A DNA stretch of 64,000 nt from Pseudomonas sp. BN102 (GTDB taxonomy: Bacteria; Pseudomonadota; Gammaproteobacteria; Pseudomonadales; Pseudomonadaceae), in NCBI RefSeq assembly GCF_029871245.1, contig NZ_SSON01000059.1, positions 1 through 64,000 of the forward strand, written 5' to 3'. Under the pieces are notes generated by a model that made no database searches, was not told the DNA's origin, and saw nothing but the letters and a program-made list of their open reading frames with translations. The position numbers and the translations under genes are program-made. Of this stretch, positions 25,623 to 41,494 are shown in pieces. Within the stretch, counting starts at the first letter, position 1. Each line of letters starts with the position of its first letter.

Positions 25623-25666
25623 GCTTGAGTTTTTCGCAACTACCAGCGGCCTAAAATTCCTTTGAA
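25623..25666 (+). promoter_or_regulatory. Shared regulatory element, copy 6 (aldehyde dehydrogenase)
   Basis: The element begins GCTTGAG-N5-CGCAA and ends AATTCCTTTGAA, matching the core and the distal box of the other copies at identical spacing. It lies 100 bp upstream of the aldehyde dehydrogenase ATG. Confidence 0.7.
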
Positions 25667-28818: not shown

Positions 28819-28883
28819 GGAGCGGCACTCTCTTGTTGTTGTGATAGGTCCGGAACCGATGCTAGGAACCCGCCGAAGGCCGC

Positions 28884-28927
28884 GACAAACGATTAAAACA
28901 GCGTTTTCGCTTGAGATTTACTCAATC
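28884..28927 (-). promoter_or_regulatory. Shared regulatory element, copy 1 (porin/LysR)
   Basis: Read on the minus strand, GATTGAG...CTCAAGC leads to AATCGTTTGTC. On the plus strand the core reads TTGAG-ATTTA-CTCAA, a perfect 5-5-5 palindrome with T-N11-A spacing. It lies between oprD and the divergent LysR gene. Confidence 0.8.
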
Positions 28928-35388: not shown

Positions 35389-35741
35389 TGGCAGGCCTCC
35401 ACGGATTCGAACACATAGCCATAGGTCTCATCCGGCTGGATGCGGTAGCGGCCACCGATCACCGGGCGCTGGCTGCCGCCGATGCGGCCGAACAGGCGCA
35501 GCGGGCCTTCCATGTCCAGGTAGCCCAGGGCAAAGGGCACGAGACCGCTCTTCGGGCTCGGGTGGATGATGCTGAAGCTGTACAAGCTGCCCTCGTCGGC
35601 CAGCGCTTCGATGCGGTACTGGTCAGCCAGTGGGGAGTGCCCCGGCAACGCCGGGAACACCAACTCGCCGCTGGCGATATGACGGGAGCCAAGCAGGCGC
35701 GGGGGGCTATCGCTCCCCCAGAGGGATGGCAGCGGGTTCAT
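35385..35741 (-). CDS. DUF35 OB-fold protein lacking zinc-ribbon cysteines
   Basis: This 118-residue protein is the partner of the thiolase. It has the OB-fold part of DUF35 (LYSFSIIHPSP, VPFALGYLDMEGPLRLFGRIGG, GRYRIQPDETYGYVFES). The usual rubredoxin-like zinc ribbon CxxC-CxxC is missing: the region reads GSRHIASGELVFPALPG, with the only cysteine near the C-terminus. The start at 35741 has a perfect AGGAGGTCGAC. First gene of the operon; regulatory element copy 2 is 73 bp upstream. Proteins of this type bind acyl-CoA and partner enzymes. Confidence 0.85.
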   Translation of the reverse strand: MNPLPSLWGSDSPPRLLGSRHIASGELVFPALPGHSPLADQYRIEALADEGSLYSFSIIHPSPKSGLVPFALGYLDMEGPLRLFGRIGGSQRPVIGGRYRIQPDETYGYVFESVEACQ

Positions 35742-35814
35742 GTCGACCTCCTGTTGTTTTAAGCCGCGCGAACGGCTCTGGACTGGAGCTATGGTCGACA
35801 TCGGGCGGAACCCC

Positions 35815-35858
35815 GACAAACGATATAAAGACCACTTCTGGTTGAGTTTTCCGCAAGC
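35815..35858 (-). promoter_or_regulatory. Shared regulatory element, copy 2 (CoA operon)
   Basis: On the minus strand, GCTTGCGG and ACTCAACC lead to ATATCGTTTGTC. It is identical to copy 1 over its last nine bases (TCGTTTGTC) and aligns without gaps. It lies 73 bp upstream of the DUF35 start. Confidence 0.8.
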
Positions 35859-35940
35859 GAAAGTCCGCACCCGGCGATTCACGGCGCGGCCGCAGGCGTG
35901 GCGCCATCGGCGACGCCAGCACTCCTCACCGAGACCTTTC

Positions 35941-36426
35941 ATGCACATCAGCAACCTGATCCGCCGCCTCGCCCAGCCGAAGCTGGAGCAGCGCCAACTG
36001 CTGCGCCAGCGCTATGCGTTCTTCTGCGGCAGGCGCCACCGCTTCTTCGGGCGTAGCGACGTGACCCTGGAGGAGCTGCAGGGCGAGAACTTCGTCAGCT
36101 TCGTCAGCGACCAGATCGGCGGCAATCTCTCGCCCCTGGCGGTGTTCCGCGACCAGCAGGGCTTTACCGGACGGATAGTCGCCTCTTCATCGAGCTTCGA
36201 GGAAATTCACCGCCTGGTCTGTGCGGGATACGGCATCGGCTGCCTGCCGGAGCATCTGCTGAGCAAGGACATCGACGACGGCCTGTTGTGGCGGCTGCCA
36301 CCGGTGGAAGGCATAGTCGATGTCGATATCTTCCTGCTGTGGAACCGCGAGCAGAAGATGACCATTGCCGAGAACGTGTTCCTGGAAAGCTTCCAGCACA
36401 AGCTGGCGACCGCCGAGGGAGACTGA
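35941..36426 (+). pseudogene. LysR regulator remnant (C-terminal half only)
   Basis: From ATG 35941 the reading frame gives about 161 residues matching only the effector-domain C-terminal half of an LysR protein: LRQRYAFFCGRRHRFFGRSD, VSFVSDQIGGNLSPLAVF, FEEIHRLVCAGYGIGCLPEHLLSKDIDDGLLWRLP and EQKMTIAENVFLESFQHKL. The N-terminal helix-turn-helix is absent in all frames between 35742 and 35940, which instead holds the promoter of the CoA operon. It is most likely what is left of a dedicated LysR gene after a deletion of about 170 codons. A translated truncated product is possible but could not bind DNA in the normal way. Confidence 0.75.
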
Positions 36427-36506: not shown

Positions 36507-38666
36507 TCAGGCCTGGCGCAGCTGCTGTGGATCGATCGGCAACGAGCGCAGCCGCTTTCCGGTGGCGGCGAAGATGGCGTTGACCACCGCCGGGGCTATG
36601 ACCACGGTGGAGACCTCCCCAAGGCCGCCGGGGGATTCGCCACTGTTGATGATGTGCGTTTCAATGGGCGGCACCTCGTTGATGCGCAGCATCCGGTAGC
36701 TGTCGAAATTGCCCTGCTCCACCCGGCCATCCTTGTAGGTGATGTTGCCGTACAGCGCCGCCGTCAGGCCGAAGACGGTACCGCCCTGCATCTGCGCCAC
36801 CACCGAGTCGGGATTGATGGGGATGCCGCAGTCCACCACGCAGGTGACCTTGTGCACCTTCACCGCGCCGCTGGCGTCCACGCTGACCTCCGCCACCTGC
36901 GCGGCATAGGTGCTGAAGCAGTAGGTCAGGGCCAGGCCGCGACCGTGTCCGGCGGGCAGCGGCGAATCCCAGCCCGATTTCTCGCGCAGGGTTTCCAGCA
37001 CCTTCAGCGCACGCGGGTGCTTCTCCAGCAGCGGATAGCGGTAGCTGAAAGGATCGACCTTGTTCATGGCCGCCAGCTCGTCCATGAAGCCCTCCACCAT
37101 GAACGCGTTCTGGGTGTGCCCCACGCCGCGCCAAAAGGCGGGGGTGATGCCCTTGGGCGGCTCGTGGCGCACGTAGTGCACCGCCAGGTTGGGGAAGCCG
37201 TAGGGGCCGCAGGCGTCGCGCACCGCGTCGCCGTCGATGCCATTGGTGAAGCGCGCCGGCGCCCAGCGCGCGATGATCGAGCCGCCGGTGACCTTGTGGG
37301 TCCAGGCGATGGGCCGGCCCTGCTCATCCAGGCCCGCCGCGAGGTGGTTGTAGTGGAAAGGTCGCAGGGTGCTGTGGCGGGTGTCTTCCTCGCGGGAATA
37401 GATCACCTTCACCGGGTAATCCACCTGCTTGGCCACCTCCAACGCATGGCCGACGAAGTCCGTTTCCAGGCGCCGGCCGAAACCGCCGCCGAGCAGATGG
37501 TTGTGTACCTGCACCGATTCTTCCGGCAGGCCGGTGAGCTGCGCCGCGAGGGTTTTAGCCCTGGCTGGCACCTGGATGCCCAGCCAGAGGTCGCAACCGT
37601 CCTTGCGTACATGGGCAGTGCAGTTGACCGGCTCCATGCAGGCATGCGCGAGGAAGGGCACCTGGTAGGTCACCTCCACCTTCTTCGCCGCCTTGCCCAT
37701 GGCAGCCTGCACATCGCCTTCGGCGCGGGCCTGCACACCTTCGCCCCTGGAGGCTTCCTCGATATTCTTCAGCAGCTCGGCGCTGGACACCTTGGCGTTC
37801 GCGCCCTCGTTCCACTTGATCGACAGGGCAGCCAGGCCCTTGCGCGCCGCGCCGGTGTGGTCGGCGATGACCGCCACCGCATCCTTGGTGCGCACCACTT
37901 TGTGCACGCCCTTCACCGCCATGGCTGGGGCGTCGTCCACTTCGGCCAGGGTGCCACCGATCACCGGGCAGATGGTCAGCGCGGCGACCTTCACCCCTTC
38001 GGGGCGGGCATCGATGCCGAACTTCGCCTTGCCACGCACCTTGTCCGGCGAGTCCGTGCGCTTGGCGGGGGTGCCGATCAGGGTGAACCGGGACGGGTCC
38101 TTCAGTGGCACCTCACCCGGCACCGGCAACTTGGCGGCGGCGTCCACCAGCTCTCCGTAGCCCAGCTTGCGGCCGCTCTCCGCGTGCACCACAGCGCCAT
38201 TCACGGCCTGGCAACTCTCCACCGGCACCGACCACTGTTGCGCCGCCGCCGTCACCAGCAGGACGCGTGCCGTGGCACCGGCTTGGCGCAGGGGTTTCCA
38301 GTTCGCCGGCACCGAGGTGGAACCGCCGGTGACCTGGAAGCCGAGCATGGGGTTGGCGTAGCGCTTGTCGTCGGCCGGCGCGTGTTCGATCACCACCTGA
38401 TCGAGGCTGATTTCCAGCTCTTCGGCGATCAGCGCCGGCATGGAGGTGTAGGTGCCCTGCCCCATTTCCACCGGCTGGATGATGAAGAACACCTTGCCGC
38501 TGCGGTCAATGCGGATATAGGCGTTGGGGCTGAATTCGCCCTCCGCCGCCTGCGCATCGCCCATCAGGCCGGGCAGGCTGAAGCTGATTAGCAGGCCGCC
38601 ACCCACGGCGGCGCTGGCCTTGAGAAAACCACGGCGGCTGAGGCCGGAAAAGGTCAGGTCGTTCAT
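36507..38666 (-). CDS. Molybdopterin-dependent aldehyde oxidase, large subunit (IorB-like)
   Basis: This 719-residue catalytic subunit of a xanthine-dehydrogenase-family oxidoreductase belongs to the isoquinoline 1-oxidoreductase-like group. A Tat signal ([23 protein letters not shown]) directs folded export. Motifs: [54 protein letters not shown] and the C-terminal [24 protein letters not shown] with the active-site Glu region. It oxidises an aldehyde or hydroxylates a heterocycle in the periplasm. The start at 38666 overlaps the small subunit's stop by 4 bp. No cytochrome c subunit is encoded next to it, so the electron acceptor must come from elsewhere. Confidence 0.92.
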
Positions 38667-39145
38667 GCCGCATCCTCCGCCTTGGCCGGTTGCGCCTGGG
38701 CGGCCAGTTTGATGGCCTCGCGAATGCGCAGGTAGGTGCCGCAACGGCAGATATTGCCGGACATTGCGCCGTCTATGTCGGCATCGCTGGGGTTCGGGTT
38801 GGTCGCCAGCAGCGCGCTGGCGGACATGATCTGCCCCGACTGGCAGTAGCCGCACTGCACCACTTCGGTGGCCAGCCAGGCCTCCTGCACGCGCTTGCCG
38901 GCGTCGGTTTCACCGATGGCTTCGATGGTGGTGATTTCCGCGCCGACCATGCTGCTCACCGGCATCACGCAGGAACGGACCGCCGCGCCATTCATGTGCA
39001 CGGTGCAGGCGCCGCAGAGTGCCATGCCGCAGCCGAACTTGGTGCCGGTCATGCCCAGCACGTCGCGCAGTACCCAGAGGAGCGGCGTATCGGGGTCGAC
39101 ATCGACGCTGTGCTCGGTGCCATTGATCTTCAGGGTGAGGGCCAT
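38663..39145 (-). CDS. 2Fe-2S small subunit of aldehyde oxidase (IorA-like)
   Basis: This 160-residue electron-transfer subunit has both 2Fe-2S sites: C39, C44, C47 and C59 ([18 protein letters not shown]) in the plant-type ferredoxin domain, and C98, C101, C133 and C135 ([22 protein letters not shown]) in the helical domain. It has no Tat or Sec signal and would be carried out with the large subunit. It lies 107 bp after the small ORF at 39253-39333 and is translationally coupled to the large subunit. Confidence 0.95.
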
Positions 39146-39252
39146 ATCGCCTCCTAGTGGTTTTCATCAGGACGGCCGCCCGTCGTTGCGGGCGGTCTAC
39201 GGTTGGCCAGGGCGATACGGCGGCCCTGGAAGGAAAAGGGATGGGGGTTGGA

Positions 39253-39333
39253 TCAGGGAGCGCCGGAATGGGCTTCGGGAATCGTGCCTGGGGTGTCGTG
39301 GGCCAGCGGGCCATCGAGCAGAACCTGAAGCAT
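39253..39333 (-). CDS. Candidate 26-aa leader peptide
   Basis: A short ORF starts MLQVLLDGPLAHDTP and ends EAHSGAP, preceded by GGAGGCAACC at good spacing. It is the first ORF downstream of regulatory element copy 3. Its start lies 105 bp from that element, within the 65-111 bp range seen for the five other copies, whereas the 2Fe-2S gene itself would be 293 bp away. I do not recognise it; it could be a small protein, a leader peptide or a chance ORF. Between 39146 and 39550 nothing else coding was seen. Confidence 0.45.
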   Translation of the reverse strand: MLQVLLDGPLAHDTPGTIPEAHSGAP

Positions 39334-39438
39334 GGTTGCCTCCGTGGGCAGGCCGTTCCATCAGGGCTGGGCGACTGGCGGATCAAAGGCGCCAGCGCGG
39401 GGCGGACCCAAGGATGCTAGAAGCCCCTCGCGCACACT

Positions 39439-39482
39439 GCCAATCGAATTAAACGCACTATTGGGCTGAGTTTTTTTCAAGC
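39439..39482 (-). promoter_or_regulatory. Shared regulatory element, copy 3 (aldehyde oxidase)
   Basis: On the minus strand, GCTTGAAAAAAACTCAGCC leads to TTTAATTCGATTGGC. It has the same CGA-N19-TGAG spacing (plus strand) as copies 1 and 2. It lies between the oxidase unit and the divergent phosphatase gene. Confidence 0.75.
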
Positions 39483-39550
39483 CGTTTCGGAGCCATCCGC
39501 GCCACTCGCGGTATCCTGTTGCGCTCGTTCGCACAGGTTCCGTTGCCCCG

Positions 39551-41494
39551 ATGTCCGCAGTCTCCTCCCAGGAAAACCTCCCCTCCGTCCTTGCCGGCCC
39601 CCTGCTGCGCCGCATCGAAGCCCGCCGCCTGGTGCTCTGGCTGGTGGCGTCGCGCCCGCTGTCGCCGGTGCTGCGGCTGTCGCTGGACGGTGGCGTGGGG
39701 TACAGCCTGGACAGTGACGCCTGCCGCGTGATCGCCCTGGGGCGGCATGCCTTCCTGCACCTGATCGACCTGCGCCTGGAGGCCTCGCTGCCCCTGGACC
39801 AGCAGGTGGACTACGACCTGCTGATCGATGGCCAAGGCATCGCCGACTGGGCGCCACACCTGGTCTATGGCGAGGCGCGCCAGCCGAGCTTCGTACTGCG
39901 TAAACGCATCGACCAGTTGCTCCATGGCTCCTGCCGCAAGCCTCATCATCCGGCGCCGGACGGCCTGCTGTGCGCCGATCGCCTGCTGGCTGCCGGGCCG
40001 GCGCCCGAGGATCGACCCGCGCTGTTGCTGATGAGCGGCGACCAGGTCTACGCCGACGATGTGGCCGGCCCCATGCTGCGCGCCATCCACCAGCTGATCG
40101 CGCGCCTCGGCCTGTTCGACGAGCGCCTGGAAGGCGCCGTGGTCAGCGACAGCGCGGCGCTCTACACCCATCCGGCCAGCTATTACCACCGAGCCGACCT
40201 GCTGCCGGCGCTGGAAAGCAACGAAACCCTGCGCGAGCGCTTCTTCGGCGGTGCGCGCAAACCCATCTTCACCAGCAGCAACGCGGAAAACCACCTGGTG
40301 ACGTTCGCCGAGGTGCTGGCCATGTACCTGCTGGTCTGGTCGCCGGTGCCCTGGACCCTGGTCGACCCGCAGATGCCCGCCCTGGAAGCGGACAAGATCG
40401 AGCGCTACCGGCTGGAGGAATCCCGCCTGGCTGGTTTCCGCGCCGGCCTGCCCGGCGTGGCGCGGGTGCTCGCCCACCTGCCGACGCTGATGATCTTCGA
40501 TGACCACGACATCACCGACGACTGGAACCTCTCCGCCCAGTGGGAGCAGACCGCCTACGGCCATCCCTTTTCCAAACGCATCATCGGCAACGCGCTGCTG
40601 GCCTACATGCTCTGCCAGGGCTGGGGCAATGACCCGGACGCCTTCGGCGAACTGCTGGACCGGGCCGAGGCCCTGAGTGCCACCGCCGCCGGTGACGGCC
40701 ACCTGGACAGCATTCCCCAGGACGGGCTGATCGACCGCCTGCTGGGCTTCAACCGCTGGCAATACGTGCTGCCCACCACACCGGCACTGGTGGTGCTGGA
40801 CACCCGCACCCGCCGCTGGCGCAGCGAAATCGAGCTGAAGCGTCCGTCCGGCCTGCTGGACTGGGAGGCCCTGAGCGAGCTGCAGCAGGAGTTGCTGGAT
40901 CACCCGTCGGCCATCATCGTGTCACCGGCGCCGATCTTCGGCGTCAAGCTGATCGAAACGGTGCAGCGGGTATTCAGCTGGTTCGGCAACCCGCTGCTGG
41001 TGGACGCGGAGAACTGGATGGCACATCGGGGCGCGGCGCAGGTGATCCTCAACATCTTCCGCCACTCACGCACACCGGGCAGCTACGTGGTCCTCTCCGG
41101 CGACGTGCATTACTCCTTCGTCTACGAAGTGCTGATCCGCCATCGCCAGCAGGGCCCAAAGATCTGGCAGATCACCAGCAGCGGCATCAAGAATGAGTTC
41201 CCCCGCCGCCTGCTGGATGTATTCGACCGGCTCAACCGGTGGCTCTATTCACCGCGTTCGCCGCTGAACTGGTTCACCAAGCGCCGGCCCATGAAGGTGG
41301 TGCCGCGTACGCCGGAGCACAGCAAGGCCGGCGAGCGCCTGTGGAACTCCGCCGGCCTCGGTCAGGTGTTCTTCGACCCCCAGGGCCGGCCGGCGCGCAT
41401 CTTCCAGTTGAACGCCGACGGCTCGGTGCCCACCGAATTCATCGAGGACCGCGACGACCTGGCGGCTGAACATCCGGTGGCACGGCGGGTATGA
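39551..41494 (+). CDS. PhoD-like metallophosphatase family protein
   Basis: This 647-residue protein has the alkaline phosphatase D-type metallophosphoesterase motifs in order: LLLMSGDQVYADDV (near residue 160), LMIFDDHDITDDWN (near 315) and VVLSGDVHYSFVYE (near 517), which carry the metal-binding Asp and His residues. No signal peptide is apparent, unlike classical secreted PhoD, so it may be cytoplasmic or membrane-associated. The N-terminal 140 residues form a separate beta-rich region. The substrate is unknown; phosphodiesters are plausible. The truncated hemoglobin gene follows 31 bp later and may be cotranscribed. Confidence 0.85.
   Translation: MSAVSSQENLPSVLAGPLLRRIEARRLVLWLVASRPLSPVLRLSLDGGVGYSLDSDACRVIALGRHAFLHLIDLRLEASLPLDQQVDYDLLIDGQGIADWAPHLVYGEARQPSFVLRKRIDQLLHGSCRKPHHPAPDGLLCADRLLAAGPAPEDRPALLLMSGDQVYADDVAGPMLRAIHQLIARLGLFDERLEGAVVSDSAALYTHPASYYHRADLLPALESNETLRERFFGGARKPIFTSSNAENHLVTFAEVLAMYLLVWSPVPWTLVDPQMPALEADKIERYRLEESRLAGFRAGLPGVARVLAHLPTLMIFDDHDITDDWNLSAQWEQTAYGHPFSKRIIGNALLAYMLCQGWGNDPDAFGELLDRAEALSATAAGDGHLDSIPQDGLIDRLLGFNRWQYVLPTTPALVVLDTRTRRWRSEIELKRPSGLLDWEALSELQQELLDHPSAIIVSPAPIFGVKLIETVQRVFSWFGNPLLVDAENWMAHRGAAQVILNIFRHSRTPGSYVVLSGDVHYSFVYEVLIRHRQQGPKIWQITSSGIKNEFPRRLLDVFDRLNRWLYSPRSPLNWFTKRRPMKVVPRTPEHSKAGERLWNSAGLGQVFFDPQGRPARIFQLNADGSVPTEFIEDRDDLAAEHPVARRV

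Follow-up and report, generated by a model that had tools for sequence, protein, structure and literature searches.

The window, that is, the whole stretch of 64,000 nucleotides analysed here, carries on its reverse strand an operon encoding the two subunits of an enzyme of the aldehyde oxidase/xanthine dehydrogenase family (Table 1). The molybdopterin-binding subunit scores above the cut-off of the Tat model in the NCBIfam scan and just below the cut-off of the Pfam Tat model. Neither subunit reaches the curated cut-off in any NCBIfam match to a named oxidase, so that no specific substrate is assigned. Genes encoding a thiolase, a CoA-transferase, an enoyl-CoA hydratase and an aldehyde dehydrogenase are located nearby. 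An ORF on the forward strand (35740-36426) has a match confined to the later part of the LysR effector-binding profile; a helix-turn-helix match is absent from the scanned ORF, the other frames having been inspected by eye, and this ORF is possibly a truncated regulator.

The leader of the oxidase operon contains a small ORF with a GGAGG motif and a clean stop, exactly as described in the original prediction, and its reality is confirmed. The oxidase ATG (39145) lies 107 nt downstream of its stop codon. The sigma-70 promoter listed in Table 1 is the only promoter-like match in the 39050-39700 region and sits at the downstream end of a repeated element, described later in the text. Because this promoter and the element lie upstream of the small ORF, the latter is the predicted first cistron of the operon, and transcription would start near 39406.

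Table 1. Features of the oxidase operon and of its leader, in window coordinates
Feature	Position	Strand	Basis or remark
LysR-type-site-like element (TTGAAAAAAACTCAG...)	39435..39480	-	Repeat family; upstream of promoter
Predicted sigma-70 promoter TTGGCA, 18 nt, TAGCAT	39414..39443	-	Promoter scan
Predicted hairpin, leader 5' of small ORF	39374..39396	-	7 pairs
GGAGG ribosome-binding site of small ORF	39339..39343	-	5 nt upstream of ATG
Small leader ORF, 26 codons, MLQVLLDGPLAHDTPGTIPEAHSGAP then TGA	39253..39333	-	Translation of window
Pyrimidine-rich, G-poor tract, rut-like candidate	39226..39252	-	Directly 3' of small ORF stop
Possible first spacer hairpin, CCAGGGC-N9-GCCCTGG	39207..39229	-	Folding prediction
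Second spacer hairpin, CGCCCG-N6-CGGGCG	39177..39194	-	Folding prediction
Hairpin pairing oxidase Shine-Dalgarno (39150-39154)	39149..39176	-	Folding prediction
2Fe-2S subunit gene, aldehyde oxidase/xanthine dehydrogenase family	38663..39145	-	NCBIfam matches
Molybdopterin-binding subunit gene with Tat signal	36507..38666	-	Overlaps 2Fe-2S gene as ATGA

In accordance with the expectation that the peptide would be conserved upstream of the oxidase genes, the small ORF was found in all 10 same-genus orthologous leaders, with GGAGG at 5-6 nt from the ATG in each and a stop located 105-111 nt upstream of the oxidase ATG. The peptides have 26, 26, 26, 26, 25, 25, 26, 25, 21 and 21 residues. All of them end in Pro-TGA, with one synonymous Pro codon (CCT), and their conserved part is E-x-H-S-G-[AS]-P-UGA; the peptide of genome G006 combines a divergent first half (MFREALDRRSS) with the same ending (PELHSGAP-stop). 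Three genomes have a 3-nt gap within the small ORF and two have a 15-nt gap, all of them in frame. Counting each genome separately, 25 of the 27 gaps in the spacer have a length that is not divisible by three.

In the last 12 codons, third positions are variable in 9 of 12 cases versus 7 of 24 for the other positions (Fisher p 0.012); this and the other p-values are to be taken as guides, since the 10 genomes are related to one another and both the tract criterion and the C-terminal motif were chosen once the sequences had been seen. Taken by themselves, the N-terminal and middle codons lack this bias (p 0.56 and 0.43, respectively). The pN/pS of the small ORF is 0.52, a value reached by 5 of 500 column shuffles. 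Neutral simulations were rooted in the ORF of the window, with substitutions only and base frequencies taken from untranslated columns; ATG, frame and stop never persisted across all tips, either in 2000 runs at the rates of the spacer or in 2000 at the ORF's own rates. A terminal Pro codon was kept at every tip by 139 and 266 of 2000 such runs, so that its conservation in 10 of 10 genomes, a TnaC-like trait, is weak evidence when taken alone. The small ORF evolves only somewhat slower than the spacer (tree lengths of 1.27 and 1.66). The operon leader thus contains a short conserved ORF with a ribosome-binding site and with selection at the amino-acid level, the third-position signal being confined to the C-terminal half; a substitution pattern typical of noncoding DNA, named beforehand as the outcome that would speak against a peptide, did not appear. 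On these grounds, translation of the small ORF in vivo is very probable.

Among 148 genomes of the family, orthologues of the 2Fe-2S subunit with 89-100% identity are present in 10 of the 18 same-genus genomes, the window's own included. An orthologue from another genus (G111, 85% identity) has no such small ORF in its oxidase leader, and the eight same-genus genomes without an oxidase orthologue gave no convincing match to the small ORF, which therefore co-occurs with the operon (10 of 10 with, 0 of 8 without). In genome G011, the leader and the oxidase are found together with no PhoD-like match in the 6.5 kb examined, indicating that the small ORF accompanies the oxidase. The 10 peptides were turned into a profile and run against 398 family genomes, with at most 21 candidates scored per genome. 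This profile recovered those 10 at E ≤ 1.3e-7; the next-best match (E 0.002) lies within a 227-codon open frame, and the weaker matches from there on look like chance. When ORFs with a Shine-Dalgarno-like site in front were screened for the motif, no match was found at 80 distant oxidase loci, some of them with little upstream DNA, or at loci L045-L063. Of eight oxidase loci examined whose subunits have 65-67% identity, the gene start was located in six, which have no similar leader ORF, and not in the other two. Searches of NCBIfam and Pfam with the 10 small peptides gave nothing up to E 10, the 275-nt leader is without a match in plasmid records, and a literature search found no paper joining isoquinoline 1-oxidoreductase with a leader peptide. 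We file this leader peptide as new and genus-restricted, and its kind, the regulatory leader peptide, as already known.

The 27 nt that follow the stop consist of 70-89% pyrimidine, 30-70% C and 4-15% G in all 10 genomes, a composition that is kept throughout although the sequence drifts. Their mean unpaired probability is 0.61 in the window and 0.47-0.70 over the 10 genomes; a C-rich, G-poor and unstructured tract is thus present right after the stop. It is the most extreme among 11 hand-picked intergenic stretches of the window, searched on both strands with pyrimidine and G limits taken from the tract itself: only 9 of 4446 27-mers have Y ≥ 0.81 and G ≤ 0.05, and all of them overlap or abut the small ORF stop. 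The original prediction was silent on this tract, as well as on the C-terminal focus of the conservation with a Pro before UGA.

Equilibrium folding did not show a switch in the leader. The spacer of the window folds better than most shuffles (z -2.05), the spacer with 6 nt of the gene ranges from z -3.02 to +0.53 across the 10 genomes, and the whole leader is no better folded than its shuffles (z -1.30, 22 of 200). The Shine-Dalgarno sequence of the small ORF is itself predicted to be mostly paired (unpaired probability 0.01-0.23). Covariation is weak (3 of 58 pairs, term -0.34). One of the seven pairs of the hairpin upstream of the small ORF is changed on both sides, in one sequence; the first spacer hairpin, which is missing from the lowest-energy fold of the window spacer plus 6 nt of the gene, has one such pair in 2 of 10 genomes, and the second spacer hairpin has none. 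A consensus scan of 39050-39700 found 0 terminator-like sites, and an attenuator with an intrinsic terminator was rejected. A known RNA family was also discarded, as a scan of 38900-39700 against Rfam gave nothing up to E 1.

Several known systems bear some likeness to this locus. The classical amino-acid attenuators trpL and hisL have a short ORF at the operon head, as is the case here; however, the small ORF has no run of codons for one amino acid and is not followed by a terminator-like site in the scanned region. TnaC has a conserved Trp, and tnaA lies downstream. In contrast, none of the 10 peptides contains a Trp and the genes downstream encode the oxidase, and membership of the TnaC family proper was therefore rejected. 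The likeness lies in the architecture: tnaC of the E. coli tnaCAB operon, in the passages of PMC8429421 devoted to it, has 24 residues, a Pro right before UGA, a rut site right after the stop and a catabolic operon downstream, and here a peptide of 21-26 residues has a Pro before UGA and a rut-like candidate tract directly behind the stop. According to excerpts of PMC7815308, mdtU has 34 codons and a conserved C-terminus, its stop lies 106 nt from the following AUG, and Rho is involved; the C-terminal conservation and the stop-to-AUG distance are comparable in our leaders. However, the peptide and the target differ from those of MdtU and of SpeFL in E. coli, and nothing suggests polyamines here. 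A C-terminal Pro slows release in some contexts and had no effect on expression in one library, as stated in part of PMC7246954, and the strong tagging motifs named in that same part, DP and EP, differ from the AP or SP ending of the small peptide.

As judged from the sequence, the leader peptide most likely functions, through its translation, as a switch for the downstream genes. The original prediction of a translated leader or small protein is supported, and we consider that the small ORF probably acts in cis, as an operon leader. In the mechanism that we propose, ribosomes would load on the new transcript at the GGAGG and ATG of the small ORF and make the 26-residue peptide, whose selected part would be the C-terminus with its Pro before UGA. 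Release at Pro-UGA would be slow, or blocked under an inducing condition, and the stalled ribosome would cover the start of the pyrimidine-rich tract and keep Rho off the 107-nt spacer. With Rho excluded, RNA polymerase would reach the oxidase genes; if the ribosome left at once, the tract would be exposed and the message would end early. We infer translation in vivo, the arrest, the slow release, the action of Rho, any ligand and the use of the promoter; the leader reading is supported by the conserved coding ORF, its position, its C-terminal focus and the tract. To such a cis-acting leader peptide, with arrest linked to termination and control of the Rho type, we give a little less than an even chance. 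A more specific version is doubtful, in which the peptide ending in E-x-H-S-G-[AS]-P-stop would be a new ribosome-arresting sensor that detects a compound consumed or made by the oxidase pathway and that gates the molybdenum-hydroxylase operon through Rho, on top of a LysR-type promoter.

Other readings of the same leader were weighed. The third-position bias in the C-terminal half and the co-occurrence of the peptide with the operon would also fit an independent microprotein that acts in trans and might, for instance, partner the oxidase or its regulator. However, the peptide is very short and its middle varies in length, it has no conserved Cys (a Cys is present in the G011 peptide only), it matches no NCBIfam or Pfam family and, among the candidates scored in the 398 genomes, it occurs in the oxidase leader only. 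This makes action in trans rather unlikely, and action in cis is favoured over it. It is highly improbable that the leader is non-coding, with conserved blocks corresponding to RNA structure or protein sites and an incidental ORF. Conservation in the 40 columns preceding the ATG is no lower than in the ORF (24 of 39 versus 33 of 66 invariant gap-free columns), the predicted hairpins are conserved and the tree length of the ORF is not far under that of the spacer, but the in-frame gaps, the third-position bias of the C-terminal half, the neutral simulations and the lack of an Rfam match all argue against this view. The 36 nt preceding the ATG (39334-39369, reverse strand) are identical in 7 of 10 genomes; G011 differs at one position, and G004 and G006 differ at several.

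Translational attenuation, in which the position of the ribosome would switch base pairing in the spacer and so mask or expose the oxidase start, appears improbable. It would be in line with the mostly paired state of the oxidase Shine-Dalgarno in all 10 genomes (unpaired probability 0.02-0.35) and with an 11-pair helix in the window, formed by GCCGUAUCGCC (39211-39221, reverse strand) and GGCGAUAUGGC (39141-39151) at the oxidase start, which competes with the first spacer hairpin. However, the start region likely pairs with this spacer segment in 6 of 10 genomes (0.73-0.84), and the value is at most 0.04 in the other 4. Moreover, masking a ribosome stalled at the stop hardly alters the pairing; the largest rise in the unpaired probability of the oxidase Shine-Dalgarno was from 0.08 to 0.13, and a stall-induced release of the oxidase Shine-Dalgarno is thus unsupported. 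As followed by eye, the 11-base helix is partly retained in G011, with a change on both sides, and is broken at its centre in G015.

If the cis-acting leader peptide is real, a molybdenum-hydroxylase operon would gain a leader peptide that bears signs of selection in its sequence, and one unit of a likely LysR-type regulon would gain a second, post-initiation layer of control. With its short C-terminal motif, naturally variable N-terminal part and directly adjacent pyrimidine-rich tract, the leader is suited to reporter mutants.

The element upstream of the promoter resembles a LysR-type site, and its TTGAAAAAAACTCA is kept in the 10 orthologous leaders. It is presumably bound by a regulator, for which the LysR-type regulator encoded next to the porin gene would be the candidate. 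Six copies had been claimed: three of them, at 28880, 35811 and 39435, form one repeat family in 26500-50000 (the other two being 72% and 61% identical to the first), two further copies at 25625 and 29885 look similar, and the sixth was not identified. With at most three mismatches, a simple element pattern gave 9 matches versus 3.95 expected, a number reached by 1 of 100 shuffles. Counted from 39438, the predicted distances of 105 bp to the small ORF ATG and 293 bp to the ATG of the next gene were both recovered. The spacing of 65-111 bp given for five other units held at the two that we re-measured in the same register, with 65 bp at an OprD-type porin gene (ATG 28818) and 73 bp at the unit with ATG 35741. 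The dyad TTGAG-N5-CTCAA at 28911-28925, between the OprD-type porin and LysR-type regulator genes, is the most symmetric copy of the element seen.
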